From: Poecilobothrus nobilitatus
Lineage: Eukaryota; Arthropoda; Insecta; Diptera; Dolichopodidae
Direction of reading: 5' to 3'
Assembly (NCBI GenBank): GCA_947095535.1
Contig: OX352772.1
Span: 260,024,793-260,088,792, forward strand
DNA: 64,000 nt
The position numbers were made by a program, and so were the translations under genes. Below, one piece after another: positions 41,732 through 62,493 of the stretch. Below the pieces are notes generated by a model, which saw only the letters and a program-made list of their open reading frames with translations, was not told the origin of the DNA and did not search any database. Numbering within the stretch: the stretch's first letter is position 1; the number at the start of each line of letters is the position of its first letter.

Positions 41732-42034
41732 ATGGATTCATCATCATCATACAACATAAACCAAGGATGTATTGGTTCAACTGTATTTGTACGACAAGCA
41801 TTTAAAATATCATTTGGACCTTATCCCCAAGTTGCAATATGTTTCAATTGTGGTGAAAGAAATGTAACGACAGTTGAATATGAAAATGCTAACAAAACTC
41901 ATATTGCAGCTCTATTAATGTGTTTGATAGGATTATGGTGTTGTTGTTGTATCCCATATTGTACTGATAACATCAAAAATATAAATCATTATTGTTTGAA
42001 ATGTAACAATTTTTTGGGTGTTTATAATAAATAA
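41732..42034 (+). CDS. LITAF-domain protein (captured host-type gene)
   Basis: 100 residues, uninterrupted. The order CFNCGERNVTTVEYE, a membrane-embedded helix THIAALLMCLIGLWCCCCIPYC, then NHYCLKCNNFLGVY is the complete LITAF domain: two CxxC half-sites forming one zinc site around a monotopic membrane helix. Cellular LITAF proteins sit on late endosomes and affect protein sorting and inflammatory signalling. The usual PPxY/PTAP-rich N-terminus is absent; only about 30 residues precede the domain. Ranaviruses are known to encode LITAF-like proteins. Absent from the matching place in B2, so it is probably cargo of B1. Confidence 0.9.
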   Translation: MDSSSSYNINQGCIGSTVFVRQAFKISFGPYPQVAICFNCGERNVTTVEYENANKTHIAALLMCLIGLWCCCCIPYCTDNIKNINHYCLKCNNFLGVYNK

Positions 42035-42071
42035 ATTATTTAAAGAAAAAGATTTTATGTCTATGCTATTG

Positions 42072-42079
42072 TATAAAAG
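42072..42079 (+). promoter_or_regulatory. TATA box before the 42,139 gene
   Basis: TATAAAAG 60 bp before the ATG at 42,139, in the gap after the LITAF gene. Confidence 0.4.
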
Positions 42080-42138
42080 CTAATCTTAATATTGAAAAGC
42101 GTCATAACACGATAAGCTTAGTAAATAACACGATCATA

Positions 42139-42868
42139 ATGTTTTGGGCTGAGAATATTTTACATGGGTATAAATATTGTATTTGTGGGCGGAAATGGGC
42201 TTCAATTAAAATAATTAATTGGAGAATATTTCACGATTTTTTGGAGGTATATATAACTCCAGAAGGTGGTGAAAAAAATTTGTTTATTTAAAATTAGAAA
42301 TGGTGAATCATTTACTAATCAATTCGATTTATCTTCTTTGGATTGGCAACATCTAAAAATAGAAGTATATGGTGGTGATATATCTATTATTGGTAAAATA
42401 AGAGGTTTAACGAATAAAAAAAAGCAAGCACCTAATCATTTTAATGCTGATTGTCCATTTTCTGAAGAAGATGATTGGGAGATGATTGAAAAGAATATTT
42501 CAAATGTTCTGCCAGTTGGTAAGAATAAAGGAATTACTGAAAATATTGATGCATTATCACTGACAAACAATGAATATGAAGAAAATCAGAATGAATTGAA
42601 AAAGTCGATGATAAGGAAACGAATCGATGAAGGAATTATATTTATATATTCAATAGAAAATAAATATAATGCAAAAAATAAAAAATCAAAAATTGGTGAC
42701 ATGTTAACTAATTTTAGAAAATTACTTGAAAATTTAAAAGAGGAATATTTAGATTATATGGAAGCTTTTTCAGATGGAAGAGATAGATTTTCATCACTCT
42801 TTATATATGTATGTTCTATTATAAGTCAAGTAAAGTTTGTACATAATAAAGAACTTTCTAGAAAATAA
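42139..42868 (+). pseudogene. Unknown Polinton B gene (HGYKYCICG family), one frameshift
   Basis: Paralogue of 59,292-60,023, which is intact. ATG at 42,139 starts MFWAENILHGYKYCICGRKW. The frame breaks at a run of seven A (42,272-42,278) and continues in the next frame to 42,868. Shared blocks: HDFLE.Y.TPE, IEVYGGDI.IIG.IR, DADCPF.EE(D)DWEMIE, then a long helical region with MEAFSDGRDR and a C-terminal hydrophobic YVC.IISQVKF. No known domain recognised; the CxC pair alone is not enough for zinc binding. Confidence 0.6.
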
Positions 42869-42955
42869 AAAGTATAAGTTATATATTTATAATTTCCAAT
42901 CGCACATTACTGTATAAACCTTGAATGAAGATAGATCAAAGTTTTTTTTGTAACA

Positions 42956-43591
42956 ATGAAATCATTTTTAATTTTAATATTTTGCTTGTTTACTATTCAA
43001 GCAAATTCAGCTCCAACTTCTAATATTAGATTGGATGAATCAGCTTTTGGGAGCACATATTTTAATATATTACTTCCAAATAATGAAACTGTTAAAGTAA
43101 ATTTACCAGTTCAGTTTTTAAAACATGTAATTTCCTCAGAAACAAATACTATTGAAATTACAACAACAACTACAATACAACCATTAACTACTTTGCAAGC
43201 AGTTAATCAATTTTTATCAGATAAAGCTGATTCAGTACCGCAATATGCATCTATAGATGATGCTATTAAAGCTTTTAGAAATGAATTAGTTTTAAAAGAG
43301 CAGAATATTGGTGGAATAATAAATAGTCAGCATATATTTTATAGGCATTTTGTATTGAATTTTGGTGAGAATCAAAAACTTACTGTGAGATGTGAATATG
43401 AAAGCATTTTTATTGAAATGTATCTTAAAATTCAGTGTCATGAATATCGAGAAATATTAGTTGAAAGAATTACAGGTGATGGAGAAGCAGAAAAAATTAT
43501 GATGGCAGATACAGAATATAAATCTGATTTCACTGTAATTGATTTAAGAACAATCAAACAGGATCCGACATATCAAATGGAAATTCATTAA
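42956..43591 (+). CDS. Secreted protein of unknown family (B1)
   Basis: 211 residues. A clear signal peptide (MKSFLILIFCLFTIQANSA) precedes PTSNIRLDESAFGSTYFNIL, a Thr-rich linker (ITTTTTIQPLTT), ADSVPQYASIDDAIKAFR and a C-terminal beta-rich part with RCEYE..KIQCHEY cysteines. No transmembrane anchor, so secreted or luminal. Paralogue in B2 at 60,182-60,829, also directly before the converging integrase. Could be a host-interaction factor or a virion surface component; neither is shown. Confidence 0.7.
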   Translation: MKSFLILIFCLFTIQANSAPTSNIRLDESAFGSTYFNILLPNNETVKVNLPVQFLKHVISSETNTIEITTTTTIQPLTTLQAVNQFLSDKADSVPQYASIDDAIKAFRNELVLKEQNIGGIINSQHIFYRHFVLNFGENQKLTVRCEYESIFIEMYLKIQCHEYREILVERITGDGEAEKIMMADTEYKSDFTVIDLRTIKQDPTYQMEIH

Positions 43592-43646
43592 AAAACAAAA
43601 AAATGTAATTAAAAAAAAATAATATGAAATAAAAAAAAAATTTTCT

Positions 43647-44567
43647 CTATATTAAATCAGTTTTATTTATCCATGAATTATGATCAGATGAGAATCCAAG
43701 CCATTTTACAAAAATCTTATTATCTTTACTTTTAATAACTTTTTCAACTAGGTAAATATTATTATGTTTAGATTTTAACAATTCATATTCATAGAAGCTT
43801 CCTTGTATAGGTTGACCTTGATAATCTTCCAGTAAATATGTGACAGGGTTAGTGATTTGAACTTTTCTTATCTTGAATATTTCAGTTGTCCAATTTGGTG
43901 TGTAGCCTTTTTCAAAAACATGTTTATACTTGCCTATTCGAACTAAGTCACCAATTTTAAATTTGTATGATGGTGAAATTTTAATATGATTATATATAGT
44001 TTTAAGTAAATTTTCAGCATTATCTTTATTAACATCAGATGGTCGTTTTTGAATTGTTCGATGTTTAGTGTTGTTATATTGTTTTGTTAATTCTTGAATT
44101 AGGTTAATCCATTTATAATTTCCATTAAAACTAAATTCTTTCCACATCTTTTCTTTTAAAGTTCTATTAAAACGTTCAACAATAGAGGCTTTTAATATGC
44201 TAAATGTTGAATAATGATTTATATGATATTTATCCATTAATTTTTTGAATATTTTATTAAAAAATTCTTTCCCATCATCTGTTTGTAAATTTTGCGGATG
44301 TCTTTTAGAAGTTAGAAAAATATTTTGCATTGCTTTTGTAACGTTCTCTGAAGTTTTTGCTTTTATAGGAATTGCCCAAGCATACTTAGAAAAGCAGTCA
44401 ATCACAGTTAATAAAAATTTAAATCCTTTGTTCTCTTTAGCATATGAACCCATTTCTACTAAATCAGCTTGCCAAAGATCATCAAATCCTTTAATTATAA
44501 CTCTACGTCGTTTAAAATTTCTTCGTGCAGGCTTATGCAGCGCTTCAACCACCTCTCTTTTACTCAT
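43647..44567 (-). CDS. int: Polinton integrase (rve, DDE) with chromodomain (B1)
   Basis: 306 residues from MSKREVVEAL (44,567); an upstream in-frame ATG at 44,615 adds only a hydrophobic leader and is not conserved in B2. Catalytic residues: WQADLVEM (Asp), TDDGKEFFN (Asp), ASIVERFNRTLKEKMW (Glu). Then KFKIGDLVRIGKYKHVFEKG, NWTTEIFKI and chromodomain KWLGFSSDHNSWINK. Intact, unlike most B1 genes. Close paralogue in B2. It joins element ends to host DNA. Confidence 0.9.
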   Translation of the reverse strand: MSKREVVEALHKPARRNFKRRRVIIKGFDDLWQADLVEMGSYAKENKGFKFLLTVIDCFSKYAWAIPIKAKTSENVTKAMQNIFLTSKRHPQNLQTDDGKEFFNKIFKKLMDKYHINHYSTFSILKASIVERFNRTLKEKMWKEFSFNGNYKWINLIQELTKQYNNTKHRTIQKRPSDVNKDNAENLLKTIYNHIKISPSYKFKIGDLVRIGKYKHVFEKGYTPNWTTEIFKIRKVQITNPVTYLLEDYQGQPIQGSFYEYELLKSKHNNIYLVEKVIKSKDNKIFVKWLGFSSDHNSWINKTDLI

Positions 44568-44672
44568 TTTTAAATAAAATGTGCCTATATAATTTATATA
44601 TATAATAAAAAGCAAATAATAAAATGTATTTAAAATTTATATTCTTTATTTATGTATGTATATAAAGTTATA

Positions 44673-44966
44673 TTATGATTTATTTTTTATTCTTTTATAT
44701 AAATCCATTAGTTTGGAACATTTTAACATATGATGTTCTGCTGAATGACAAGGACAAGTATCTGGAACAGTTGTGATGTTGTCTGATGTATAGGGACATA
44801 TATCCCAATGATATCCATACTCTTTTGTTTCAATTTGCATAGAATTTTTAAATAATTTTAAAAAATTAAAGTGAATTTTTAATTGGTCATAATGTTCCTC
44901 CAATAAAATATCCTCATATTTATCTAAAAAATTATTTAAAGTATATCCGATTTGATGTATATCCAT
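44673..44966 (-). CDS. Small unknown Polinton protein with CPCH motif
   Basis: 97 residues: NNFLDKYEDILLEEHYDQLKIHF, YGYHWDICPY, DTCPCHSAEHHMLKC, ending with basic residues. Paralogue 62,203-62,493 and, more distantly, 31,064-31,300. The conserved Cys/His cluster could bind zinc. Located directly upstream of the integrase in all three elements. Confidence 0.6.
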   Translation of the reverse strand: MDIHQIGYTLNNFLDKYEDILLEEHYDQLKIHFNFLKLFKNSMQIETKEYGYHWDICPYTSDNITTVPDTCPCHSAEHHMLKCSKLMDLYKRIKNKS

Positions 44967-44995
44967 TTCGAAAAGTAAATGAAAACTGATCTCAA

Positions 44996-45499
44996 TTATT
45001 TTTTTTTAAGTTCTAAACCACTTAATAAATCCAATGCTGATTGAGCTTGCGCTTCAGCTTTTTGTAGTCTCTCATTAATAAATTTAATTGGTTTTTTAAT
45101 TTGAAATTCAATAAAATCATTCATTTGTGAAAATTTTTCATTTAACAATTGTGAGAATTTAATATGGATTTCCTCTAAATTAATTTGTATTTTTTCTTCT
45201 AATATTTTTAATTTTTCTTCTGCTAATTTAAGTTCTATAGATACTGATGTCTCTAAATGATCAATCATTTTTCTCATTTCGTTTTGTAATAGATCTTTCT
45301 GAAAGAAAATATGGTTATTTACAAAATTTTGTGTTGCTGCATCACGCCCATCAATTGGTTCTTGAACATTTGATAAAATTTTGTTATCTAAATCATAATT
45401 TCCTTCAGAATTTAATTTGAAACCTATACCTGGAGGACCTTGAGTATGTAGTTTTCTAGAAGAAGAAGCTATACTACGTCCAAATTTATCGAGCGACAT
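44996..45499 (-). CDS. Fibre-like / attachment-type structural protein (B1)
   Basis: 167 residues. The N-terminal part has FKLNSEGNYDLDNKILSNVQ, EPIDGRDAATQNFV, a pattern also seen in tail-fibre-type domains (YD..NK.L.NV..P....DA.T..YV). The remainder is a long heptad-rich coiled coil (EMRKMIDHLE to SALDLLSGLE). Paralogue at 62,536-63,028. A trimeric fibre stalk is a reasonable guess from sequence form; no receptor-binding head is present. Confidence 0.55.
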   Translation of the reverse strand: MSLDKFGRSIASSSRKLHTQGPPGIGFKLNSEGNYDLDNKILSNVQEPIDGRDAATQNFVNNHIFFQKDLLQNEMRKMIDHLETSVSIELKLAEEKLKILEEKIQINLEEIHIKFSQLLNEKFSQMNDFIEFQIKKPIKFINERLQKAEAQAQSALDLLSGLELKKK

Positions 45500-45530
45500 T
45501 GTGGTTTTAACTGATTGTTAATGTAAATAG

Positions 45531-46491
45531 TTATTGTATTATATTTGCTTCTCTCAACTCTTCAATTATAGATACAATTTCATTGTGATGATTGTTGTTA
45601 CCAGCTGTTTCTGATGCAATTAAAAGTCTTAATCTATCAACTAATTCATTAGGATCATCCCAATAAACATACTGATTTGATTGATTTGTATAATTTAAAT
45701 GAGTTTGCGGATTTATGAAAATAATTTGTAAAATTTTTTTTCGAACAACCTGAAGCAGTTTTTTTATGTCTAGTGTTATAATCATGTTCATATAATTTTC
45801 TTAATATATTTTTGTATTTAAAACCTTTGTTTCCTTTTATTTGCTCTAAATGATCATAATTTCTACTATGCGCATTCGTTTTGTTCAGTATTTGATGATA
45901 TGTTTTTAAATCATTTTCAATATAGTTTATAGGTTTTTTTTTAAATATCAATTCATATAGACCATCAGTTCCTTTAAAAACTTCATTATCAATCGAAATA
46001 TTTTTAGTAATTTCATCTATTTGAAAATTAGCATTCCCAAGTTTTCGAACATTTAATGACTTATCAAAATATGGCCCATATGTCTTATCAAGTTCTGACT
46101 TGTTAAGAACAGGAAATTGTGAAATTGATGATTCACCAATAGATGAAGTCTCAAATTTTATAGTATTTGGTGTTGAAGTTATAAATTTACTGAGAGTATT
46201 ACTTTTGCTTACTTTGCTAGGCGTTTTAACTTCCGGCTTAAATGATCTCAATAATTTTAAGGTGTTATCATCACTAGCAGGCATTTTAATTTCAGGTTTG
46301 ATAACATTATTTGAAAATTGTTGTTGTTGTTGTTTGACAACATTTGTTAATTCTTTCAATGGTTTTGTAATTGGAATGAAAGCTTCTTCTCGATTACGGT
46401 CTTCTGATAGCTTCTGAACTTTTAAAGATTGAAATTTCCTTTTTAAATTTTTACGAGTTTTCATTAAATCTTTCATAAGTTGTTCATCCAT
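45531..46491 (-). pseudogene. Conserved Polinton B protein (YGPYFD..NVRKLGN / YWDDPNELVDRL), one frameshift
   Basis: The first frame (46,491-45,655) has a basic start, a Ser/Thr-rich linker, ELDKTYGPYFDKSLNVRKLGN, FKGTDGLYELIFKKKP, TNAHSRNYD and GNKGFKYKNILRKLY. The +1 frame carries QYVYWDDPNELVDRLRLLIAS, NHHNEIVSIIEELREANII. The break lies at an A8 run in sense (45,734-45,741). The family is widespread in insect genomes as uncharacterised Polinton genes. A virion or scaffold function is possible. Confidence 0.7.
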
Positions 46492-46510
46492 TTTTTTAAT
46501 AATAATTTAA

Positions 46511-46660
46511 TTAACTGTAAATTATCGACTGAACTGTTCTCTTGCTAACTGCTAACTGATAATCCCTAACTGCTGACTGGTAACTGCTATCTGCTATCTG
46601 CTAACTGCATACTACTAACTGATATCTATTAAATAACCTGTTTAGTTAGTAACTGCCAAC
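46511..46660. promoter_or_regulatory. Cluster of TAACTG (Myb-type) motifs
   Basis: Eight copies of TAACTG and one CAACTG, all on the plus strand within about 150 bp between the ATPase end and the start of the 46,491 gene, with degenerate relatives (TATCTGC, TGACTGG). TAACTG is the classical Myb recognition core. The spacing is irregular (7-25 bp), so this is a degenerate short-unit array rather than a strict satellite. Confidence 0.45.
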
Positions 46661-46681
46661 TGCTAACAGATCTTGGTTTAA

Positions 46682-47308
46682 CTAAAATTTAGCAAATGCA
46701 TCAAAATTTTTTCTATATCGCCCATTATTTAAACCACTATCTTTGTCAATTAATAGAAAACCATAATTATCATTCCAGCAGCATGCACTCAATTTTTTAA
46801 ATTCATTAAATGTCATATCAGAATTTACATGATCATTAAATATATGTTTTAAATTTAAATCATCTTGCTTAAATATAATTAAAAAATTAGCATTATCTCT
46901 AACTAAATGCTTTGGAATTCTTGTATATGACTGACATAAATAAAAGCTATCTACTTCTTGGTGACGTCCCATACAAAAATAGGCTCTTATATTATCTTGT
47001 TTATCACAAGCAACATCATCAAAAATAAATATTGAGTTTGGTTGTGAGGCTGATGGTTCAATTACATCAGCATTATTTGAAAATTCGTTATATCCCATTC
47101 CTTTGATTGGTTTTATTAATTTTTTTAAATATTCATATTTAGGTTGATGCAATGATTTCGAGTAGATATATATGTTTTGAAATTTGAGCCCTTTAGGATC
47201 TAAAAGCATACTTATCATAGCATTAGTTTTACCGCAATTTGAAGGCCCGACTATTAATCCTCTTATACTATCCGGAAAACATTCACCATGTCTTTTTATT
47301 TTCTTTTT
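46682..47308 (-). CDS. Packaging ATPase (FtsK/HerA type) of B1
   Basis: Open from 47,308; an in-frame TGA sits just upstream (47,309-47,311), and the first internal ATG (47,218) would miss the P-loop. Walker A GPSNCGKTN, then PKGLKFQNIYIYSKSLHQPKYEYL, Walker B NSIFIFDDVACDKQ, CMGRHQEVDSFYLCQSYTRIPKHLVRDNAN and GFLLIDKD. The basic KRHGE start block is present, so either the TGA is a lesion or the start lies elsewhere. It translocates the genome into the capsid in this family. Confidence 0.75.
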   Translation of the reverse strand, partial: KKKIKRHGECFPDSIRGLIVGPSNCGKTNAMISMLLDPKGLKFQNIYIYSKSLHQPKYEYLKKLIKPIKGMGYNEFSNNADVIEPSASQPNSIFIFDDVACDKQDNIRAYFCMGRHQEVDSFYLCQSYTRIPKHLVRDNANFLIIFKQDDLNLKHIFNDHVNSDMTFNEFKKLSACCWNDNYGFLLIDKDSGLNNGRYRKNFDAFAKF

Positions 47309-47421
47309 TCAATTTTGATCGAAATTTTTAATTTTAACTGCATTATCTAGTTTTATAAATTTCTTTTTATAAAATGTGATAAGTATTTGAGTGACTTTCT
47401 TAAACTAAACAACTTAATATT

Positions 47422-47820
47422 ATGCCACTTCATAATAAATATTCAATCAGTAACCAAAAAACTGTTAATGGAAAAGGTGTAGTTAATTCTCTAATTAATA
47501 AACTACTATTTGAAGCACATTTACCTGGCTCTAATTATTGTGGTCCAGGGACAAAACTAGCAAAACGATTAGCACGAGGTGATAAAGGAATTAATGGTTT
47601 AGATGAGGCTTGTCGAGAGCATGACATAGCATATTCTCAAAATATTGATCAAAATCAACGTCATATAGCTGATAAAATATTGGCAGAGAAAGCTTGGCAA
47701 AGGATAAAAGCTAAAGACTCAAGTTTTGGCGAACGGTTAAATTCATACCTAGTTACAAACTCAATGAAAGCTAAAGTTAGGCTCGGTATGGGATTAAAAA
47801 AGAAAAAAAGAAAATTTTAA
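47422..47820 (+). CDS. Phospholipase A2-domain protein (parvovirus VP1u type)
   Basis: 132 residues. PGSNYCGPGTKL is the calcium-binding loop and LDEACREHDIAY carries the catalytic His-Asp pair, the signature of the compact PLA2 found in parvovirus VP1 unique regions and noted in adintovirus-like elements. There it breaches endosomal membranes during entry. The protein ends in a run of lysines. The 47,835 frame starts right after in the -1 phase and its content usually belongs to the same protein in relatives, so the two are likely one gene. Confidence 0.85.
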   Translation: MPLHNKYSISNQKTVNGKGVVNSLINKLLFEAHLPGSNYCGPGTKLAKRLARGDKGINGLDEACREHDIAYSQNIDQNQRHIADKILAEKAWQRIKAKDSSFGERLNSYLVTNSMKAKVRLGMGLKKKKRKF

Positions 47821-47834
47821 GAAAAAAGAAAACT

Positions 47835-48251
47835 TTGAGAAAAAAATTCTTGAAAAATGTTATAAAGGAAGCTAAACTAGCTGTTAAAACTATAAAAAAA
47901 CCGACGAATGATAAGAATATTATAAAAACTGCTTTGCATGCTGCTAGAAAGTTTTCTAAAGGACAGAAACAAAATATTAACATTCCTCGAATAATTCCTG
48001 TACCAAAAATTGGAGGAGTTTTACCTTTAATCCCTATATTTGCTGCTCTATCTGCTATTGGAGCACTTTCAGGCGGCGCTGCAGGAATAACTAAAGCTGT
48101 TAACGATGCTAAAAATGCTCACAAAGAGTTAAAAGAAAGTCAACGTCATAATAAAATGATGGAAGCGATTGCATTAAAAGGAGGTAATGGATTGCATTTA
48201 AAAACATATAAAACAGGATTAGGTCTTTATTTGAATCCAAAAAACCATTAA
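47835..48251 (+). CDS. Basic/hydrophobic C-terminal part of the PLA2 protein (separate frame)
   Basis: 138 residues. Basic N-terminal third, then PVPKIGGVLPLIPIFAALSAIGALSGGAAGI (hydrophobic, glycine-rich), AVNDAKNAHKELKES, and the tail LKTYKTGLGLYLNP. The segment order is what follows the PLA2 domain in relatives known to me. The PLA2 frame has an in-phase A AAA AAG at 47,796-47,802, so -1 frameshifting, a one-base deletion or an assembly error would each explain the split. Confidence 0.65.
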   Translation: MRKKFLKNVIKEAKLAVKTIKKPTNDKNIIKTALHAARKFSKGQKQNINIPRIIPVPKIGGVLPLIPIFAALSAIGALSGGAAGITKAVNDAKNAHKELKESQRHNKMMEAIALKGGNGLHLKTYKTGLGLYLNPKNH

Positions 48252-48631
48252 CCAAGCTACCCAATAGAGCTCTTACAAATATTGATTTAGAAAACTTTGG
48301 TAAAAAATACTTAAAACATTTTCGAGGACTTTTTATGAGAGATAATTTACCAATACGTAGACCTTGGAAATATGAATGTGGTATAATAAATTTGGATAAT
48401 TCTATTGGATATGGAACGCATTGGGTAGCTTATTTTAAAAATGATGAAATAACTCATTATTTTGATAGTTTTGGAAATTTAAGACCACCATTAGAAGTAA
48501 TAAAATATTTAGGAGATAAGCTTACATATAATTATAATAAATATCAAAATTTTAATTCTTACAATTGTGGACATTTATGCTTAGAATTTTTATTTCATAT
48601 TCTTAAGAAAAAAATTATTATCAGTAAATAA
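48245..48631 (+). CDS. Adenain-like cysteine protease (B1), N-terminus uncertain
   Basis: The frame opens without ATG near 48,245 (LTKLPNRALTNIDLENFGKK) and the first ATG is at 48,335. The full catalytic set is visible: YGTHWVAYFK (His), HYFDSFGNLRPP (Asp and oxyanion region) and NSYNCGHLCLEFL (Cys). In relatives the protein begins shortly before LPNRAL, so only the start codon is missing. It would mature virion proteins. Directly follows the PLA2 C-terminal frame, overlapping its end. Confidence 0.75.
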   Translation, partial: PLTKLPNRALTNIDLENFGKKYLKHFRGLFMRDNLPIRRPWKYECGIINLDNSIGYGTHWVAYFKNDEITHYFDSFGNLRPPLEVIKYLGDKLTYNYNKYQNFNSYNCGHLCLEFLFHILKKKIIISK

Positions 48632-48892
48632 AACATAATAAAAAATAAAAAAAATTTTTTATTCTTAGTCTAGCTTTATTTAAACTGACCAACATTAATA
48701 ATTTTGTTGAAGTTCAAGGTTATTTCTCTATATTTGAACATAAATGAAATAAAAAACTAACTGATAAAGAATAATTAGAATTTAGTTATAACAAAAGAAA
48801 TTTAAACGAAAGATTTTTGTATATATGTATATATTATATATTAATGTGTATTAGCCTTAAATCTAAATCATTGAATTTTGGATTTAAAAACC

Positions 48893-48900
48893 TATAAAAA
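48893..48900 (+). promoter_or_regulatory. TATA box before the penton-like gene of B1
   Basis: TATAAAAA 43 bp before the ATG at 48,943. Confidence 0.35.
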
Positions 48901-48942
48901 CAGAATACACAACTGAAATATCTCATTATATCGATTAAAGAC

Positions 48943-49355
48943 ATGTCAATAACATTAACTTTAAACGGAAACTCTTCCACATTGACAACTAATTATTTTC
49001 CCCCTATAGATCTAAAGGGAAGAGAATACACCTGCGGTTTAGTTGATTTTCAAACGTATAACTCAATACCTAATATAGATGAGGAGAATAATACATTTAT
49101 TATTGATGATAAACCTATTACAATTCCAACAGATTAACAGATTAACAATAAGATTACACTTAAAGCTTTAGAATGATCGTATTTAATCAAAATTATCAAT
49201 CTAATATAAATTCACAGAATGATGAACATCATCTTAATTCTTTAAAGACAGTCGAAGGAGGAGGTGTAACACAGCATTTAAAATACAAAAAACAATTATC
49301 ATTTGAAAATAAAGAATATTTAAAATCTCTTGGATATCTACTAAAAGTAACTTAA
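48943..49355 (+). pseudogene. Penton-like minor capsid protein of B1, internally deleted
   Basis: The N-terminus (48,943-49,137) reads LTLNGNSSTLTTNYFPPIDL, YTCGLVDFQTYNSIPNIDEEN, a conserved minor-capsid start in insect Polintons. It stops after ITIPTD. The second frame (49,173-49,355) ends NKEYLKSLGYLL, resembling a short gene that normally follows. About 150-200 codons of the penton gene appear lost between them. Confidence 0.6.
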
Positions 49356-50463
49356 ATGGTGCTCTTTAATGATCCTATTTTTGATGAAACTATAACTAGT
49401 GCTCATTGGCATTCATATTCACCATTCTTAAACACATTCGGATTAAGTGATATTATACGAATACAAATACAAAATCAAAACTTAAATATATCACCCTCAA
49501 CAAGTCTAATCTACATTGAAGGTTATGTATCAAAACATGATGGAACAACTGTTACTCACACTAAACTAGTTAATAATGCTATACCATTTCTATTTGATGA
49601 AATTCGCTATGAACTTAATGGTAAGGAAATTGATCATAATCGTAATGTTGGAATAACTTCAACATTAAAAAACTATATTTCACTCAACCGAAATGAAAGT
49701 GCAGCTTTATACAATGGAAGTTGGTCACCTGATGCATCAATTAAAATAAATAATTTGTACTCTAATTTTTGTATACCCTTAAAAAAGATTAATAGGATTT
49801 GCTGAAGACTACAAAAACATTATTCCAAATGCAAAACATGAATTAATATTAACTCGCTCTCGATCTAATGATAATTCATTATTATGCGCCATTGCTAATG
49901 CAAATGAAAAACCGAAAATTACTATTACAAAAATATATTGGAAGGTTCAACATTTTAACTTAGCTGATAATCTTAAATTAAATTTATACAAAAGTATTGA
50001 AAATGGGTCAGTTATGAAAATTCCTTTTAGAAATTGGGAATTACATGAATATCCTACATTACCATCTGGAACTATACATCATATTTGCAATGTTAAAACA
50101 GCCTCACAACTTGAAAAACCTCGTTTTATTGTTTTTGCTCTACAAACTGGCAAACAAAATAAGCTGGAAGAAGATCCTTCAACTTTTAATTATTGTGATA
50201 TTGAAAATATAAAAGTATATTTAAATTCAGAATCATACCCATATGAAGATATGAATTTAGATTTTGCAAAAAATCGTTATGCTTTAGCATATGAAGCATA
50301 TTCGAATTTTAGAAGCTTTTATTATAATAACTCAATATCAGAGCCTTTAGTTTCATGCGATCACTTTAAAACTGATTCTCCAATCTTCATAATTGATACT
50401 CGTTATCAAAATGATAATCTTAAAATGGGGCCAGTTGATGTTAAAATTGAAATAAAAACTTAA
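49356..50463 (+). pseudogene. Major capsid protein, double jelly-roll-like family (B1), one frameshift
   Basis: First frame: NTFGLSDIIRIQIQNQ, LIYIEGYVSK, NNAIPFLFDEIRYELNGKEI, LNRNESAALYNGSW and FCIPLKK. After a run of six A (49,781-49,786) the +1 frame continues GFAEDYKNIIPNAKHELILT, KIPFRNWELHEYPTLPSGT, FIVFALQTGK, VYLNSESYPYEDMNLDFAKN and GPVDVKIEIKT to TAA. This is the insect double-jelly-roll-like (DJR) family, distinct from the F54H12.2-type capsid in A. Apart from the single base it looks complete. Confidence 0.8.
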
Positions 50464-50489
50464 AAGAAAAAAAAAAATTAATAAATTTA

Positions 50490-50912
50490 TTTTAAAAGAA
50501 ATTGCTATTCTTTCATCAAATGATGAAATTCAACATTTTATAATAAGATCACCTTACAGTTACCATTATTTAGACGCAAAAGCAAAAACCACCAATAAAT
50601 GGCTCACTAAAAATCATCGCGGGTTTAAATGGAGCGATGGCAAAACAAATTTTCATGATGTCATCATTTTTTTAAAGTTATTCGTAAAAAATAATAAAAT
50701 TTATGTTAAGGGAGATGAGAAAAAATCCTGGCATTTTAAAACAAAATAATGTAATCGATTTAAATGAACACGATTTAACAAGTTTAAAAGTAATGAAAGA
50801 TCAGCACATTCATTCTAATACAAAACGATGTTCCTTTAATCATGTTGGGATTTGTTCGCTTGAAAATATTCAAATAATAAAAATGCTGATTAATCAAAAT
50901 AATCCTATTTAA
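50490..50912 (+). pseudogene. Unknown conserved Polinton B gene, frameshifted
   Basis: A frame without ATG (about 50,496-50,750) has FIIRSPYSYHYLDAKAKTTN, GFKWSDGKTNFHDVI and YVKGDEKKSWHF. It shifts near 50,730 into the frame 50,703-50,912 with LNEHDLTSLKVMKDQ, CSFNHVGICSLENIQIIKML. The YVKG..K..W...DL..L..L pattern with C....C..N recurs in insect Polintons. Function unknown. Confidence 0.5.
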
Positions 50913-51500
50913 GAAGAAAAATATTTCCATTCAATATCAGTGTGAGGAGATCAATCAAACGTTATTGATCGATAATTATCATAACAATACGGATAAATAT
51001 ACTAAGCAAGCATCTAAACAGAAATATGAAAAGCTAGCTAATACTTCAACGGAATCAACTAAAAGTTGGAAGGAAGAAATAAAACAGAATAATTCTAACA
51101 ATGATAAAACTAAAACTAAGAAGTAAAAAAAAGGAGAGTTTCGATTTTATCATCATATTTAACAATTGGGAAGCCCTCAACCTCATCAACAGCTTCATCA
51201 TCTAACAACTTGAGGAAAGAAAATAATAAAAAAATTTTTTATTAACAATAATCTAAAAATCTGTAAATTAAAAAGAAAAAAATAATAAAAATTTAAATAT
51301 GAAAAAATATTTTTTTTTGCTTTTTATTTATTTAATTCTTTCTTCAATTTTTTGTATGATATATAAAAAAAATAAAAATTTTATAAATGTAAAAAATAAA
51401 AAATCAAATTTAAAATAACATACATATTCCTTTTTATTTACTTTTATTTTAAAAAAACATATATATATAAATAATTATATATATATTGAATGATTTTAAT
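50913..51500. other. Non-coding stretch, possible gene scrap
   Basis: 50,970-51,130 contains a short open stretch (ASKQKYEKLANTSTESTKSW) without a recognisable family. The rest is A/T-rich poly-A/poly-T. Confidence 0.4.
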
Positions 51501-51974
51501 TTATAATTTTTCAATTTTAAATTTTAAATTTATAATATTATTTTGCTTAGAAGTAATTACAAAATGGTATTTTATTTTGTTATTGGAAATTTTATTGTTT
51601 AAATTTTTTATTAACTTTCCTGTATATTTAATACTGTATTGCCTTGGTAAGTAAGTATAAAAATTTACTCCTTCTACCATTATGCACTTAACTGTTTCAT
51701 TGTCAGGAGTCCTGAACTTCGAATCCTTTTCCTCAAGTTTTATAATGTTATATTCCTTATTTTTCTTTAACATAGCTATCGCACAATATTTTTTATGTGA
51801 TTGCTGAACATCATTAATATCAGCAACCAATTCTGCCATATCACTATCGCTCATTTCATCAGATGAACTGTCTAGTGACACTGCTTCTTTAAAACGTTTT
51901 CCAGCAGGCCTATTCATTCTTAAAATTTCCTCTTCATCATCAGTGAAATTTCCATTTTCTCCCATTCTTTTCAT
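51501..51974 (-). CDS. Small conserved Polinton protein (LKKNKEYNI...LPRQ type)
   Basis: 157 residues. The N-terminal half is acidic and Ser/Asp-rich (DDEEEIL, SSSDEMSDSDMAELVADI). The C-terminal half reads MLKKNKEYNIIKLEEKDSKF, VEGVNFYTYLPRQY and ends in beta-type sequence. It shares the Y.I/V..F, then YMP.R / YLP.Q pattern with the broken gene at 26,426 in element A. The short beta-rich domain recalls a single-strand-binding or transcription accessory fold, a tentative reading. Convergent with the capsid operon. Confidence 0.5.
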   Translation of the reverse strand: MKRMGENGNFTDDEEEILRMNRPAGKRFKEAVSLDSSSDEMSDSDMAELVADINDVQQSHKKYCAIAMLKKNKEYNIIKLEEKDSKFRTPDNETVKCIMVEGVNFYTYLPRQYSIKYTGKLIKNLNNKISNNKIKYHFVITSKQNNIINLKFKIEKL

Positions 51975-52772
51975 TTTTTTTTGTGTACTTAGCGAAAGTA
52001 TATTGGATACTAAATTACAATTTGTATTGAATCTATCTTTTTATAAATAAGAAAAAAAAGCTTTGTATGAAATACTGAATATACATATGTTTTTTCAGTA
52101 TTAAAAATTTTTTTTCTTTTTTACTAATTTGTTAATAGTAGTACTGATAAGGATTAGTTCTAAAACATAGAAAAATGTTTTTTATCCTAATAATAAGGAG
52201 GATGTATGTGGTTTTATAGTTCTCATATTCTTAAATTTTTAAAGCAATTCATCTAATACAAAAAACTATCTGTATTTCACATTTTTGACAAATTTTAAGA
52301 AATACGTTTTCTATTTTTTTTATAAGAAAAAGCTTGTACAAAAATATACATATATTTTTTTAGTATAAAAAATTATTTTTTTCATTTGTGGTAATTGTTA
52401 ATAGTAGTGCTGATAACCTGATAAGGATTAGTTTTTAAAAAGAAAAAAATTATATTAAAATCATATTCTTATTTCTTTTTTTTTATTAAATATAATTAAA
52501 CTAAACATAAGTTTTTACAATTTATCTACAATTAATTATTTCAATGAAAATTCTAAGATTCAGTAGTTCAGTATTGATAAAAAATTTTGTTTTATTAATA
52601 CTGAAAAAAAAACATTCTGTTTAATATTTTAAAGCAATTAAAAACATTAGAGGAAGTATGTGGTTTTATAGTACTGAAAAATAACTTAAAATTTATGTAG
52701 ATTTTTGTGGTATAAAACTGAGTAACTTTTATATTAATCAAATAGTTTGATTCTTAAAAAATAACGCAAAAG
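51975..52772. other. Non-coding stretch with a duplicated segment
   Basis: TTAATAGTAGT.CTGATAA...GGATTAGTT with its upstream TTTTTTAGTATTAAAAA occurs at about 52,090-52,165 and again at 52,355-52,440. No gene seen. Confidence 0.5.
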
Positions 52773-53235
52773 ATGTATACCAGAGAAGAAATAATAAAGA
52801 TGGGCTTTAGCGCTTATGGTATTCCTAATGAATATCAAATTTTTGAGGCCGGAAATGCTGATCAAACATATGCAGTGTTCTACAGATTTTTCGATATTGA
52901 AAATCTTACTTTTAACAGTGGTCATGATTTTGTAGAAGCTTGTCAAAAAACTCCAATGGCAGACGTGTTCTGCTATAAATGTTTCATAAACATGGATAAT
53001 GAACATCAGGAAGAAAAGCAAAAAACTCTGCAAGGAACTTTCAGCTTGTACAGTTGTACAGCAAATTGATGGTTGTACAGCAACCCACCTGGTAGACGTA
53101 GAAGAATTCATAAAGAATTATGGTCCAATCTGCATTAATTGTCATTCCTCTAGCGTCATGCTAAAAATGATGAAAAAGAAAGTAATTTCAAAATTATATA
53201 GAAATATAAAAACAAAATACAATAATTTAAGTTAA
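52773..53235 (+). pseudogene. Unknown cysteine-rich gene of B1, one frameshift
   Basis: Frame 1 (52,773-53,069) starts MYTREEIIKMGFSAYGI and holds DVFCYKCFINMD. Frame 2 from about 53,020 has CKELSACTVVQQIDGC, VEEFIKNYGPICINCHSSSV and a basic tail to 53,235. The break lies in a run of six A (53,020-53,025). CYKC and CINC could form a zinc ribbon. It lies just downstream of PolB in opposite orientation. Unknown family. Confidence 0.45.
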
Positions 53236-53305
53236 TAACAATTTTTTTATTTTAATAATAAAAATACAATTGAATCATAGTTTATTTTTTTTTTTTGTAT
53301 TTACA

Positions 53306-56300
53306 TTAGTTTTCAGTTATAGAAATATGATAATGACCCCATGGTAATGTATTAAATGAATTCTGAATCAAATATCTCTTGTTATCAAAAGGACTTAATG
53401 TTATTTTTTTCTGCAAACATGTAAAGAGCTTATGATTTGGAGATTTGATATTACTTTGCTCATGTGTATATTCTAAATTTTGATCAACACATATTTTATA
53501 ATCTTCAAAAGTTATCTCATTTTTTAAAACACTATTTTTAACTCCTTTAGCTTTTTTTGTTGATTCAGGTTGAAAATCTTCATTTAATACTTCAAGAGCA
53601 TACATTTTTGCACGCAGTCCGACAAATTTATGCATCAGTTTACCACAATTTTCATCTTTCATTAATCCAGGAATTTTTTTATTTATTTGAGGTATTCCAT
53701 AAATATTATTATTAGGATATTCAGATGTATCAAAGCGATTATTATCTTGTAGAATATCCATATAAACATCATTTGTTTTTATGCTATATATTAAAGATCA
53801 GTATCTGTATAGCATAGCTGACAATTATTATCATATTTTTTCTTCATATAATTATAATGGAATTCATACAATTTTGTTTTAGATATATCAAGAATTGCCA
53901 TTCCAATATAAACTGGTTTATCGAAGATTACTTCTGTTTTAAGTAATTCAATTGCCGCTAAATTTTCATCAAAAATTTTACAAGAATGAAAATTAGGTTT
54001 TGAAATTAAAAATTCACCTCCATGACGCCCCTTCCACTATGAAACAAGCTTTATATCTCTTCGTAGGCGAACATTTTCCATAGTTTTTCCGAAAATAGCA
54101 TTACACATTAATTTAAATAGATTTTTTTCAAAATCATTCTTCGAATTTTTTCTCAAATTTGAATTTAATTCAATAAATGATCTCATCCAATCACTTTGCT
54201 GAAATTTAATAGCGCGATGAATTTTCGTTAATTTCATCCCTTCACGTAAATATTGTTTTAAATTAATATAATAATATTAACTGGATACTCGAGGTCTACT
54301 TCTAAAATATATCCAAATTCTGAATCATTTGGAATATTGAAATCTAAGTTGTTGACGTCATCAACCCATTGAAGATTCTTGTACGGTAAATATTGAATCA
54401 TAGCCCAAGAGTACATCGCATTAATATCGTAATACATAAGATATATAGAATCTTTTTTATCATCATACTGTGGAAGATATTTGTTGTTGGCTTCTGCATA
54501 TCTCTTGGAACATTGGGTAAGTCCGCCTCTAATACCTTTTTCTATAAGTAGTAACATATCGACATCATCAATCAAATCGATTTCTATACTTGTATATTTT
54601 AACATGGCATCCCATGCAAGACCTGGAACAGTGAAATAATGAGCTGGATCTAATCCGTAATTCTTTATACAACCTTCTCTAAAATTTTCGAAAACATCAG
54701 CAAGTAGAAGTATGTCAACTTTCATATAAATATCGCTATATTCACCAAGATTTTTAATGTTAAAACTTTTCCATATATTTTGCGCATATTCATAATCCTC
54801 ATCACTTATATGATTTTTATTTAAAGAACTATAAAATTCACATTTTTCAGGCAGCTGAATTTCATCTAAATTTGACCAATTTTTAATATAATCATACGGA
54901 AAAACACCCTTTCTAGTTAGCAGTTTGAGCTTATCTTCATTTATATCTTGAAATTGAGATTGTAAAATTTTTTTTTCACTTAAATAAGAAGATAATTTGT
55001 CTAATGATGCAGCCATGAAACGAAATGAATCAATAAATTTGAAAATAATTTTACTGTTTTTTATATATTTAATTATTGCTATATAATTTTCAGTGTTATT
55101 TGGTATTATTTTGATTTGTCCTTCGATACTATTAGATATATCTAATATAAGTAAGTGGGCATCATATTTAGTTAAATTTTGGAATACAATTGGGATTGTA
55201 TTTGAAACCTTATAGTTTAGGTTGCATGCTTGGTGTGCCGCTTCTCTATAATGACCCAGTCAAATGACAATGATCTTTTACTTTTATATCAGATTTATTA
55301 AATAGTTGTTCACATATATAACATGTATTAGATAGGTAAAATTCTTCAATCTGTGCTTTCGTTAGCGTTGGCATAGGATGTGAATTAAGGAAAATAGTTT
55401 CAACTTCATATGCAATTTTTTCCAGTTCTTTAGCAAACCATTTAGCACAATTAAAGCCTCTGTAGTTTCTATAAAAGCATAATGATTCATCATAAGATGT
55501 TTTGAAATAAAAACCAACACTATGCGCTTTATGTTGCTGATATTGCTTTGTATTTCGGATTATTTTTGATACTGGCTTGAGGAAACATTCGAAATCTGCA
55601 TATATTATAAATGGTACTCGTTCTTTTTTTCTAAAATTCGTAAATTTTATAGTTTTATTTTTGGAACACTAACCTTATATTCGTTGAAATTTTTGCAATT
55701 TTCCAAATGATTTTGCAATTTAACATTATTATAAAAAAAATGAAGACATATATCGCAAATAAATTTTTTCCCATTATGTTTTGATCCTTGTTTACATATA
55801 AGCCTAGAAAGATCTTTTATCCAAACATAATGGTAAAATATTGGTTCATTATTAATATTAATATCATCATTAATATTATCAAAATCTTCACCTACACCAT
55901 CATCATATCTATTCTGAATCAATAATAAATTTATGTGTCGTTCCTCTTTATTTTCTGTTAATCTAGTTGGTAAAATTTTAAAATTTTTTTTAATTTTAAC
56001 TAGTTCGTATAAGTTAACGCTTATTTTATTCATATTTTCAAATTTTTTTATATCTGTTCTAGCAACTGGAAATTTAATTTTATCTAATTTTAAAACAGAA
56101 GAGAAATGCGGATAGCTAGTTGTACGTTTTGGATTTAAACCAGACGATTTTGTAACTGGATAAAGAGCAGAAACTATTGCCCACGCAAAACAATAATTAT
56201 TTTTATTTTCAATATTTATGCATGCTTTTTTATTTTGAATAACTTTAGGTAAATTAATATATGTTGATCCATTTTGAGGTCTATAATAATTTATATTCAA

Positions 56301-56945
56301 AACTAAATTTATAGCTTGCTTTAATGCCCAACCTGAGTCTCTTTCTTGAAATTCTTCCAAATCTCTTAATATAACTCTAATTATACACTCTTTATACCAT
56401 GTTTTTAAATTAGTATCTCTTAATATTACATTGTTTTTAGTATTCATATACTTATAATCTTGAATTAAATCATTATTTGATCTTTTTATAAAATTTCCGC
56501 AAAATATAGCATTTACTTTAATAAAAGGTTCATTATTTAAAATTTTATTAACTTTACGGTAAAAAAATTTCTCACATAAAGTTAAAAAATTTAACGGATC
56601 CTTTATAAGCAAATTTATTATAACAAAAGTTTGTATTCTACTTTTAAACGCGCTATTTATAACCTTGCATTTTATATTTTTATTTTTGTATACACTTTGA
56701 TTTTTACTCAATGCTATTTGTTTTAATTTACACTTATATCCTTTACAAAGAGCTAATGAGTTAACTATTTTAAATTTTTTATTCGTTTTATTCACAGTTG
56801 TTAAAAGGCTTTTTAATTTTTTAATATATTTACTACTTTTAGTAATATATTTCTTGCATTTACGTTTATTTTTAGTTAACTCAGCCTTTGGTATTAAACA
56901 TTTTATTTTTTTAACAAGAGTTTCCGCGTTAGCCATGGTTATCAA
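53306..56945 (-). pseudogene. polB: Protein-primed family B DNA polymerase of B1
   Basis: In order: a lysine-rich N-terminus, GWALKQAINLVLNINYYRPQ, a CxxC..H finger (CDICLHFF), FIIYADFECF (exonuclease I), a treble clef with DHCHLTG, FDSFRFMAASLDKL (exonuclease II region), MYYDINAMYSWAM (palm A), [21 protein letters not shown] (motif B), CYTDTD (motif C) and C-terminal LPWGHY. Breaks: frame change at 55,647, an extra base at CCC 55,255-55,257, loss of about 45 codons plus a shift near 54,258, TAG near 54,034 and one base lost right after YTDTD (about 53,800). It replicates the element from a protein primer in the family; this copy is inactive. Confidence 0.85.
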
Positions 56946-57300
56946 TTGAATATTAAATATTGACTGCCAAAAAAGTAAAGTGTCACAGAACTCTCACATA
57001 AATCCTAAGGAATCCACATTGTTGAGCATTTTTATATATATATTATATATTATTTATACAGATAAGAAAAAAAAATGTTAAAGAAATTCCGTGACGTCAT
57101 TTTAGCTTTTAAAATTGTATTCTGATTTTTAAAAAAATTTTAGTCTAGAAATTCCCTGACGTCATTTGTTGCTTCTAAAAATTGTATACTAGCAATAAGA
57201 AAAACAATTTTTGTAATATATAATTTGTTCTTATCATACTAGCAATAAGAAAAACAATTTTTGTAATATATAATTTGTTCTTATCTTTTCTTTTTATATT
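56946..57300. repeat. Right terminal region of B1
   Basis: Inverted counterparts of the left end: AAAGTGTCACAGAACTCTCAC (56,979), two TGACGTCA sites, then two direct copies of CATACTAGCAATAAGAAAAACAATTTTTGTAATATATAATTTGTTCTTATC (57,183-57,285) and CTTTTCTTTTTATATT. Minus-strand frames here are chance. Confidence 0.75.
57092..57164. promoter_or_regulatory. Two CRE/ATF + kappaB-type compounds, right end of B1
   Basis: TGACGTCA at 57,157-57,164 preceded directly by GAAATTCCC (complement of GGGAATTTC), and TGACGTCA at 57,092-57,099 preceded by GAAATTCCG. Read outward-in, these mirror the left-end compound exactly in order and spacing. Confidence 0.5.
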
Positions 57301-57990
57301 TTTATACCCGTACGATAGGATTGTGTATAATAAAATTACTCCTCCGTTTGTAACACCTCGAAATAAGCGAGCTAGATATACCTTCAAAGGTATGGATCGG
57401 ATCAGAAAAAAATTCTAAGACTTTTGAGCCATGTCCGTCAGCACGCTAACTCAAAAACTAAGAAAGCTAGAATCTTGAAAATTATACAAAATATTCTGAG
57501 AGTAATTTGTAGGTTCCCTATTTTTTTTGGTTGAGTTTGGACCAAAACTTAGGGTAGCTCTCGAACACCTAACTTTTAGATCCCCACATTTTTTTTTGAA
57601 ATAGAGCTATGAAATTTTAACTGCTGATAGATCTCACAAAAATATTAATTTTATTTTTAATAACTTTTTTTTGTAGCCCCACCCGTTACGGAGCTACAGT
57701 TCCCCAAAGGTTCAAAAAAGCTCTATATTTAAATTGTTATAGCACAAGTTGTATAAGGTATATCTTCATTTTGAAAACGCCAAACGATTACTACTTTTAT
57801 TAGCTTTAAAAGTATATTTACAATAAATATATATTTGTGGCGTACGGTGTCTTAATTTACCGTTATGCGAAACTCAAATTTTGCAAAATCCTTTAACCCT
57901 TCTATCTTCTAAACGGTTTAAGTTGGAAACTTGACAGAAGTTAGAAAATTTTGACAGAAGTTAGATCTTTGAAAATAAGTATGAGTCGTT
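57301..57990 (+). repeat. Dispersed repeat copy R4
   Basis: Starts TTTATACCCGTACG; contains GTATAATAAAATTACTCCTCCG, AAAGGTATGGATCGGATCAG and a GTCCGTCAGCACG block; ends after two GACAGAAGTTAGA. About 90% similar to 9053-9670 and related to part of R1. Fills the gap between B1 and B2. Confidence 0.7.
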
Positions 57991-60859: not shown

Positions 60860-61780
60860 TTAAATTAAATCTGTTTTATTTATCCATGAATTATGACTTG
60901 AAGGAAACCCAAGCCATTTAACAAAAGCTTTATCATCCTTATATTTTAATATTTTTTCAATTAAGTAAATATCTTTAATTTTTGTTTTTAATAGTTCTGC
61001 TTCATAAAAGCTTCCTTCTATTGGATTGTGTTGATAATCTTCTAGCAAATATGTTACGGGATTAGTAATTTGCACTTTCCTTATCTTAAATATTTCAGTT
61101 GTCCAATTGGGTGTATAACCTTTTTCAAAAACGTGTTTAAACTTGCTTATCCGAACTGAGTCACCAATTTTGAATTTAGCCGGTGGTGAAATTTTTATAT
61201 GATTATAAACACTTGACAGCAGCTCATTAGCATTTTTTTCATTTATATCTGATGGAGATCTTCCAATTGTGCGATGTTTTTTGTGATTATATTGATGAAC
61301 TAAACTTTCAATTATGCCTATCCATTTGTAATTTCCATTAAAGCTGAATTCTTTCCACATTTTTTCTTTTAAAGTACGATTAAAGCGCTCTACAATAGAT
61401 GCTTTTAATGAGCTAAAAGTTGAGTAATGATTGATTTTATAATTTCTCATTAAATTTTTAAAAGTTATGTTGAAGAATTCTTTTCCATCATCAGTCTGAA
61501 GATTTTTTGGATATCTGTTAAATTTTGTGAAAATTGATTGCATTGCCTGAGCAACATTTTGAGCTGTTTTATTTTTTATTGGAATAGCCCAGGCATATTT
61601 CGAAAAGGTATCGATTACGGTTAGTAAGAATCGAAATGTTTTATTTTCTTTAGCATATAAACCCATTTCTACCAAATCTGTTTGCCAGAGACCATCATAA
61701 CCTTTGATAATTACTCTACGCCTTTTAAAATTTTTTCGAGCTGGCTTATGTAATTCCTCAACAACCTCTCTCTTAGTCAT
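60860..61780 (-). CDS. int: Polinton integrase (rve, DDE) with chromodomain (B2)
   Basis: 306 residues, intact. WQTDLVEM, TDDGKEFFN and ASIVERFNRTLKEKMW give the DDE triad; KFKIGDSVRISKFKHVFEKG and KWLGFPSSHNSWINK form the C-terminal domains. The ATG overlaps the stop of the upstream 61,777-62,142 gene in an ATGA, so both could come from one message. Roughly 75-80% identical to the B1 integrase by eye. Confidence 0.9.
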   Translation of the reverse strand: MTKREVVEELHKPARKNFKRRRVIIKGYDGLWQTDLVEMGLYAKENKTFRFLLTVIDTFSKYAWAIPIKNKTAQNVAQAMQSIFTKFNRYPKNLQTDDGKEFFNITFKNLMRNYKINHYSTFSSLKASIVERFNRTLKEKMWKEFSFNGNYKWIGIIESLVHQYNHKKHRTIGRSPSDINEKNANELLSSVYNHIKISPPAKFKIGDSVRISKFKHVFEKGYTPNWTTEIFKIRKVQITNPVTYLLEDYQHNPIEGSFYEAELLKTKIKDIYLIEKILKYKDDKAFVKWLGFPSSHNSWINKTDLI

Positions 61781-62142
61781 GATGAATGATCTAGTTTTAT
61801 TTCTGTTATGAGGTTGTAATTAGAAAATCTGTCATTAAAAATATGCTGACGATGGTTTTTATTTAAAACTTTAGAGATAAGGTTATCAGTATTTTCAATT
61901 CTTTTATTAAATCTTACTCGATCTAGAGCTATAATCTCCCAATATTTTTGTCGAGCTAATTTATGCGCAGAGTTCCATGTGTACAATATATGGATTTGAG
62001 GTTTTAAATCAAAACGAACTCTTTTCATCAGCTTTTGGCCATCGTCTTTCACTTCCTCCTCCTCCTTCTCTACATCACTCTCTTCAGAGGAATCCAAAAT
62101 GTTAAGCCATTCAAATAAATCAACCACCTCACTCTGACTCAT
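61777..62142 (-). CDS. PPP1R15/GADD34-like protein (putative eIF2alpha phosphatase recruiter)
   Basis: 121 residues. An acidic Glu/Ser-rich N-terminus (residues 18-36) precedes KRVRF (40-44), the RVxF-type PP1-docking motif. Then come YTWNSAHKLARQKYW (54-68) and ALDRVRFNKRI (72-82), matching in order and spacing the conserved core of PPP1R15 proteins: RVxF, then Trp and an Ala-Arg motif, a second Trp, and DR.RF..R. Herpesvirus ICP34.5 and African swine fever virus DP71L carry the same core and use it to bring PP1 to eIF2alpha, reversing host translational arrest. No membrane segment. Absent from B1, so probably cargo. Assigned by motif alone. Confidence 0.75.
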   Translation of the reverse strand: MSQSEVVDLFEWLNILDSSEESDVEKEEEEVKDDGQKLMKRVRFDLKPQIHILYTWNSAHKLARQKYWEIIALDRVRFNKRIENTDNLISKVLNKNHRQHIFNDRFSNYNLITEIKLDHSS

Positions 62143-62202: not shown

Positions 62203-62493
62203 TTATTTATTTTTAATTCTCTCATATAATTTCATTAATTTCACAATTCTTATCATTATTCGTTCAGCCGACATACATGGACATGTATCTGGGTATGAAT
62301 CAGATGAATCTGACGCATATGGGCATATAGTATAATGAATACCATGATTTCTTGTTTCCAACTGCACTGAATTTTTGAACTGCACCAAAAAATTAAAATG
62401 ATCTTTTAATTCAGTATAATGTTCTTCTAATAGAATATCTTCATATATATTTAGAAAATTATTCAATTTATATCCGATTCGTGATATATCCAT
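62203..62493 (-). CDS. Small unknown Polinton protein with CPC motif (B2)
   Basis: 96 residues: NNFLNIYEDILLEEHYTELK, HGIHYTICPYASD, DTCPCMSAERIMIRI. Same family as 44,673-44,966; here the His of CPCH is Met and the last Cys is lost, which weakens a zinc-binding reading. Confidence 0.6.
   Translation of the reverse strand: MDISRIGYKLNNFLNIYEDILLEEHYTELKDHFNFLVQFKNSVQLETRNHGIHYTICPYASDSSDSYPDTCPCMSAERIMIRIVKLMKLYERIKNK

Follow-up and report, generated by a model that had tools for sequence, protein, structure and literature searches.

The window, a 64,000-nucleotide stretch of contig OX352772.1 of Poecilobothrus nobilitatus (assembly GCA_947095535.1), carries on the minus strand of positions 61777-62142 a single clean frame of 121 amino acids, which by its sequence is a Polinton-encoded core of PPP1R15 (hereafter R15), the PP1-docking protein that targets eIF2alpha. 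The gene is carried by several Polinton subfamilies of the same genome, mostly at one conserved position, and is under purifying selection. With a probability of about three in four, the encoded subunit directs PP1 to eIF2alpha and thereby undoes the integrated stress response.

The first-pass annotation of this DNA had proposed that element B2 carries a PPP1R15-type gene and had suggested a profile search as a check. This search gave a significant match: Pfam PF10488 (PPP1R15) aligned with residues 63-103 and scored 27.7 bits, only 1.6 bits above its cut-off of 26.1, and the RVxF half of the core lay outside the matched part. Searched with phmmer at E<=10, the full set of PDB sequences yielded four matches, namely PPP1R15A (twice), PPP1R15B and DP71L of ASFV, the best of which spans residues 40-94, RVxF included. 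When the human R15A core was compared with the 284 stop-to-stop frames of the window, the R15 frame was matched at E=1.2e-8 (29.1 bits) and the next frame at 1.8 bits, while the top of 10,000 shuffles scored 7.8 bits. Mononucleotide shuffles of the ORF DNA never remained open (0 of 4000). The alignment with human R15A covers 55 residues without gaps, 21 of them identical. A profile built from 15 distinct genomic copies obtained eight PDB matches, led by R15A (2e-5), R15B (4e-5) and DP71L (8e-4), and a profile search of proteins found 43, all with PF10488, the four named ones being rodent PPP1R15A/B. A single-sequence protein search with the ORF gave no match, and scans of IMG/VR with R15, the integrase, their alignments and the motif pattern detected no relative; the sole phage match (E=3) was not credible.

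Table 1. Features of the window that relate to the R15 gene and its carrier elements.
Feature	Position	Strand	Basis or remark
R15 ORF (PPP1R15-type, 121 aa)	coding 61780-62142, stop 61777-61779	minus	Pfam, PDB and R15A matches
R15 core, residues 40-106	61825..62025	minus	PP1-docking half, then actin/eIF2alpha helix half
RVxF PP1-docking motif KRVRF, residues 40-44	62011..62025	minus	motif comparison; V42 and F44 fixed in 43/43
Acidic linker, residues 17-38	62029..62094	minus	copy alignment; length varies among copies
N-terminal DLFEWL, residues 8-13, candidate eIF2gamma-docking helix	62104..62121	minus	F10, W12 and L13 fixed in 43/43
B2 integrase (rve; chromo below its cut-off)	60860..61780	minus	Pfam; overlaps R15 stop by ATGA
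P96, conserved Polinton gene (96 aa) upstream of R15	62203..62493	minus	locus comparison
P167 homologue, shortened	62723-63028		B2
P278 homologue, split	63255-63677 / 63735-63998		B2
Element B1, Polinton	41013..57303		inverted ends 41013-41183 / 57056-57303
B1 spacer without R15, between P96 homologue and integrase	44568..44672	minus
Decayed family-2 R15 core, in-frame stop	37371-37535	minus	near ATPase remnant 38146-38439 (plus)

The motif order read earlier from the letters (KRVRF, then W-x-x-A...AR, a second W and DR-x-RF-x-x-R) was borne out by the residue positions K40-R-V42-R-F44, W56-N-S-A59, A63-R64, W68 and D74-R75-x-R77-F78-x-x-R81, and the acidic N-terminus ahead of these motifs was confirmed. 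The other structural claims also held: the R15 stop (TGA) and the integrase ATG share four bases, ATGA, and the clean frame stands among neighbours that are partly decayed (P278 split, P167 shortened). Comparison with 12 function-tagged positions of human R15A revealed ten identical residues, namely V556 and F558 (RVxF), R578 (Arg pocket), W582, D588 and R591 (eIF2alpha), F592, R595 and R612 (actin) and I596, together with one conservative replacement (R594 to K80) and one loss (R587 to L73). The roles of these residues follow the available text of PMC4394352 and PMC8500838, R578 and I596 being mouse or R15B numbers transferred to human R15A via the common Trp. The ORF retains parts corresponding to the PP1, G-actin and eIF2alpha contacts. 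At the third position it departs from a strict eIF2alpha-motif consensus that reportedly goes back to Rojas in 2015.

A six-frame search of the species' own assembly (943.8 Mb, 84 contigs) with the R15 ORF gave at least 180 matches, a lower bound because scoring covered 150 of 2,027 first-look candidates. Sixty loci were fetched, comprising the top 20, with the window copy as L003, and 40 picked lower among the matches listed. At 48 of the 60, R15 is preceded by P96 and followed by the integrase, all on one strand; the others have the integrase only (1), P96 only (3) or neither (8). Besides this P96-R15-integrase order, copies were found at three further kinds of position. In L039, L043 and L044 (only L044 intact), R15 is flanked by ORF211 and by the integrase, towards which it faces, and in L029 and L035 (L029 intact) it lies ahead of ORF243/ORF200 at the element end, an arrangement visible in L061. 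The intact gene of L036 has a PolB match 1.7 kb off, and that of L037 an ORF243/ORF200 match 1.6-2 kb off, in the longer stretch L062; around R15 in L048, no element gene was detected within its stretch. These differing positions indicate that R15 has moved within the element and was kept. In 12 other copies of the B2 lineage the flanking DNA is 96.7-99.3% like that of the window copy (best alignments 1.8-3.4 kb long; a second flanking piece, in one case, at 94.6%), and these copies have therefore moved recently on an evolutionary scale. The identification of a PPP1R15-type gene in B2 is supported, but B2 is far from its only carrier, the gene being widespread in this Polinton clade.

R15 was counted as intact when an ATG stood at the expected place and the frame reached at least 95 amino acids, which was the case in 43 of the 60 fetched loci, window copy included, and not in 17. 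The 43 include near-copies, 13 in the B2 cluster and eight in another. Residues F10, W12, L13, V42, F44, R64, W68, L73, R77, F78, R81, I82 and F102 are unchanged in all 43, and D74 (42), W56 (42), R75 (41) and R98 (40) are near-invariant. Relatives without the RVxF and the paired residues behind it, which had been named as evidence against the assignment, were thus not seen: V42 and F44, the second Trp (W68) and R77, F78 and R81 are kept in 43 of 43. By function, the RVxF and PP1 Arg-pocket residues (V42, F44, R64) are present throughout; the invariant Trp and the actin-side residues W68, F78, R81, I82 and R98 are kept in 43, 43, 43, 43 and 40 copies; and among the eIF2alpha contacts (R15A R587, D588, R591, R594), the window ORF keeps D74 and R77, while K80 is conservative and L73 marks a loss. 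All 43 intact copies have Leu in place of R587, and the R594 position holds K in 19, Q in 20, E in two, N in one and R in one.

Taking one R15 per 95%-identity cluster left 17 copies, of which 15 were used, L017 and L034 being dropped for shifted C-termini. These 15 distinct copies are 60-77% identical to the window ORF, and in them the residues invariant in the 43, plus W56 and R98, are all invariant; conservation of single residues extends to R15 copies with as little as 52% identity. All but one of the 15 match PF10488 at E<=0.01. Median omega was 0.19 for the core (105 pairs of the 15 copies), 0.37 for the N-terminus (89 finite pairs), 0.52 for the linker (79) and 0.25 for the whole of R15 (104), and in the alignment the linker and the tail beyond the core differ among copies. 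Under another filter, which admitted intact copies paired at pS 0.1-0.5, median pN/pS was 0.45 for R15 (298 pairs), 0.33 for P96 (177) and 0.20 for the integrase (24), so that R15 shows the loosest constraint of the three genes compared, yet with a ratio below 1.

The carrier B2 is present only in part: its start falls within 57.3-59.2 kb (it is homologous to B1 from 59241 onward), its other end is cut by the window end, and it holds the integrase and homologues of B1 genes in the same order. The neighbouring element B1 encodes a double-jelly-roll (DJR) capsid protein, PolB, a PLA2-domain protein and an integrase, and has an A32-like ATPase match under the Pfam cut-off (20 against 22.8 bits). 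The features expected of a Polinton/Maverick (rve integrase, PolB, ATPase, DJR capsid and inverted repeats) are thus present in B1, with the ATPase match below cut-off. B1 is read from sequence as having lost R15 secondarily, since the integrase tree nests it among R15 carriers and the leader comparison agrees. In the tree (64 rows), B1 falls within the R15-carrying loci, in a group of six with P0001, P0002, L050, L053 and L055 (support 99/94; a 28-row group 97/97; bootstrap not fully settled). The loci of this tree were chosen for having R15, and it gives no frequency of R15 loss.

The leaders of the two genes resemble each other in B2: the first 23 nucleotides of R15 match the B1 integrase start at 20 of 23, and among 157 other ORF starts in the window the B1 integrase leader is the best match to the R15 leader. 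At the protein level R15 starts MSxxEVVD in B2 and the integrase MSKREVVE in B1. This common start may reflect either shared origin or chance. In L028, L040, L046, L047, L049, L050 and L053, R15 matches its own integrase leader at only 15-18 of 23. The B1 integrase leader is closer to the integrase than to the R15 leader in seven of eight loci, the exception being L002 of the B2 lineage; the values for integrase and R15 leaders were 92 vs 42 in L050 and 96 vs 43 in L049, whose R15 resembles that of L050. A reading of B1 as the empty site of an R15 capture, with duplication of the leader, was abandoned in view of these leader comparisons and of the integrase tree.

A scan of the whole genome with PF10488, in which 150 of 1,569 candidates were scored, placed all 150 above the cut-off (best 42.7 bits); 14 control genomes gave no match. 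Eighteen of the 150 (the best 10 and eight picked) were sorted by family. Fourteen belong to a second R15 family, with cores in open frames of 39 to 135 amino acids, and four (L065-L068) to a third, broken group; many of the remaining 132, viewed by eye, have frames of about 69-84 amino acids, like several of the 14. Two family-2 cores show 45-51% identity with three family-1 cores and 44% with human R15A. Fifteen of the 18 loci (all but L070, L078 and L079) have a Polinton ATPase close to R15, as has the decayed relic in the window. The 289-amino-acid frame of L074 was considered as host PPP1R15 and rejected as a decayed family-2 copy, and the host's own PPP1R15 was not found among the loci looked into. 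In L071 (R15 orientation, from about 775) and at about 37500-38100 (minus) of the window, the family-2 R15 seemingly stands at the end of a longer frame that lies upstream and has 205 amino acids in L071; R15 and the upstream frame perhaps formed one longer R15 protein that has since been broken.

According to the available text of PMC8500838, the human holophosphatase consists of PP1, R15 and G-actin, and eIF2alpha is gripped by the second half of the core, which actin holds. If the Polinton protein works as human R15 does in its solved complexes, its RVxF, hydrophobic stretch and R64 would wrap host PP1, the next helix (W68-F78-R81-I82...R98) would recruit G-actin, and the other face of that helix (D74, R77) would present phosphorylated eIF2alpha to PP1. 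Dephosphorylation of eIF2alpha would then maintain translation during expression of the element's capsid and replication genes, and would counter the host's eIF2alpha kinases. Insects have PERK and GCN2 and are not known to have PKR, so the opponent would be PERK or GCN2 if the host is an insect. The earlier interpretation of the gene as a countermeasure against the integrated stress response is supported, PP1 binding and eIF2alpha dephosphorylation being predicted from the residues retained.

The N-terminal segment may add a further contact. In the available text of PMC10998612 and PMC7615683, R15A and R15B are described as holding eIF2gamma via an N-terminal Phe/Trp helix (H1) followed by acidic ED residues, and conservation of the Phe/Trp helix is reported for Drosophila R15, ICP34 and DP71L. 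The DLFxWL segment is helical in both models, at low confidence, and is followed by the acidic linker, a similar layout; the F/W spacing differs, being i, i+2 in DLFxWL against i, i+4 in the solved FLKAWV helix. AF2 with 15 rows predicted residues 1-42 at pLDDT <50, a helix at 48-95, a break and a helix at 99-106, while the single long helix obtained by AF2 on one sequence was taken as an artefact. Foldseek of the R15 model against PDB gave no match. As a lead, DLFxWL and the acidic linker may grip eIF2gamma as H1 and ED do, in which case the helix would represent a new kind of anchor on eIF2gamma.

Other explanations of the gene differ in what they make of these observations. The idea of a chance resemblance in a low-complexity, AT-rich frame can draw on the shortness of the protein and its acidic N-terminus, but has a negligible probability, being already refuted by the shuffle and window controls, the specific PDB matches and the residue conservation down to 52% identity. 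That the element merely happens to carry along a fragment of host PPP1R15, for which it has no use, is very improbable: the gene persists, with omega well below 1, in 15 copies that share less than 95% identity, its key residues are unchanged and it is retained at different element positions. The loss of R15 in B1 and its weaker constraint relative to two neighbours speak for such a passenger, as do the 17 of 60 fetched copies that are not intact, although decayed copies are expected of inactive insertions. A similarly slight chance attaches to the idea that the host itself uses the copies, a scattered and domesticated reserve for tuning its stress response. Their high number, both by the ORF search and by PF10488, could be so explained, but R15 follows the element gene order in 48 of 60 loci, and the flanks shared by the 12 B2-lineage copies at 96.7-99.3% are what transposition gives.

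Changes at the substrate-facing side bear on the eIF2alpha target itself. A PP1-docking subunit of R15 descent could now be aimed mainly at another phosphoprotein, of the host or of the element, and the loss of R587, the replacement of R594 in all but one of the 43 intact copies (39 with K or Q) and the variable linker and post-core tail are consistent with this. Given the changes at R587 and R594, substrate-facing residues are less kept than those for PP1 and actin. We consider a changed target unlikely nonetheless, as the actin residues F78, R81 and I82 and the eIF2alpha residue R77 are conserved in 43 of 43 and D74 in 42, all of them part of the eIF2alpha-specific half rather than of generic PP1 binding. 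Under the preferred reading, in which PP1 is directed to eIF2alpha, natural variants of this kind (R587 lost, R594 replaced, a different N-terminal helix) would help to dissect how the holophosphatase targets eIF2.

Compared with known systems, the Polinton R15 shares with human PPP1R15A (GADD34) and PPP1R15B (CReP) the RVxF, the Arg-pocket R, the invariant W, the F/R/I helix, the R612 equivalent and an acidic stretch ahead of RVxF, and the last F of its core is as in R15B. It differs from them in its 121 amino acids against more than 600 (available text of PMC10998612), and from R15A in the lost R587 and a core identity of 38%. Like DP71L (ASFV) and ICP34.5 (HSV-1), it is a small protein cut down to the R15 core, DP71L being a direct sequence match and ICP34.5 likened by description only; those proteins belong to large DNA viruses, whereas the carrier here is an integrating Polinton repeated in the genome (at least 180 matches). 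Viral R15 proteins are on record for HSV-1 and an insect granulovirus (PMC4394352) and for ASFV (PMC5346070), as far as the accessible parts of these papers go. A PPP1R15 of an insect virus is accordingly already known, coGV-gp036, which by description is likewise an R15 in an insect DNA virus, although its carrier is a baculovirus, unlike a Polinton. Polintons/Mavericks with accessory regions are treated in PMC8097293 and resemble B1 in inverted ends, PolB, integrase, ATPase and DJR capsid, but the available part mentions no R15, and the word 'phosphatase' is absent from its main text. Among titles and opening lines of abstracts, in literature reaching few subscription journals, no report was found of a Polinton with an R15 gene. 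The phosphatase mentioned in the accessible text of PMC8504770 is a cited PP2C, and the main text of PMC11071296, on gene transfer among animal viruses, contains no PP1, GADD34, PPP1R15 or eIF2.

The known use of R15 is relief from translation arrest induced by stress or infection, and its retention by selection over many Polinton lineages is indirect evidence of a protein-producing, infection-like phase; as of 2021, no Maverick viral particles had been observed (available text of PMC8097293). Self-synthesising transposons would join the carriers of R15, and the host pathway that they meet would be indicated. Tentatively, and at somewhat less than even odds, translation rescue of the R15 type may belong to the regular accessory functions of at least two Polinton groups here, kept by selection at several element sites. 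In that case these Polintons would have a productive phase of protein synthesis that provokes the host integrated stress response, and would act as true viruses with an immune-evasion gene.

Several other features were observed. The integrases P0001 and P0002, which are nearest to that of B1 and 78% identical to that of B2, come from public metagenome- and SRA-type protein sets, and relatives of this clade are therefore present in other data. The phospholipase A2-like domain protein of B1 (47422-47820, plus; PF08398, E=4e-15) adjoins the structural genes and is presumably of a kind found in parvovirus capsids. ORF211, a conserved Polinton ORF with no Pfam match above cut-off in either copy (42956-43591 and 60128-60829, plus), lies tail to tail with the integrase, and its start resembles a signal peptide by eye. 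In two partial PolB copies of element A, positions 20908-21207 and 23555-23854 are identical 300-base stretches 2,647 bases apart, which looks like a recent tandem duplication.
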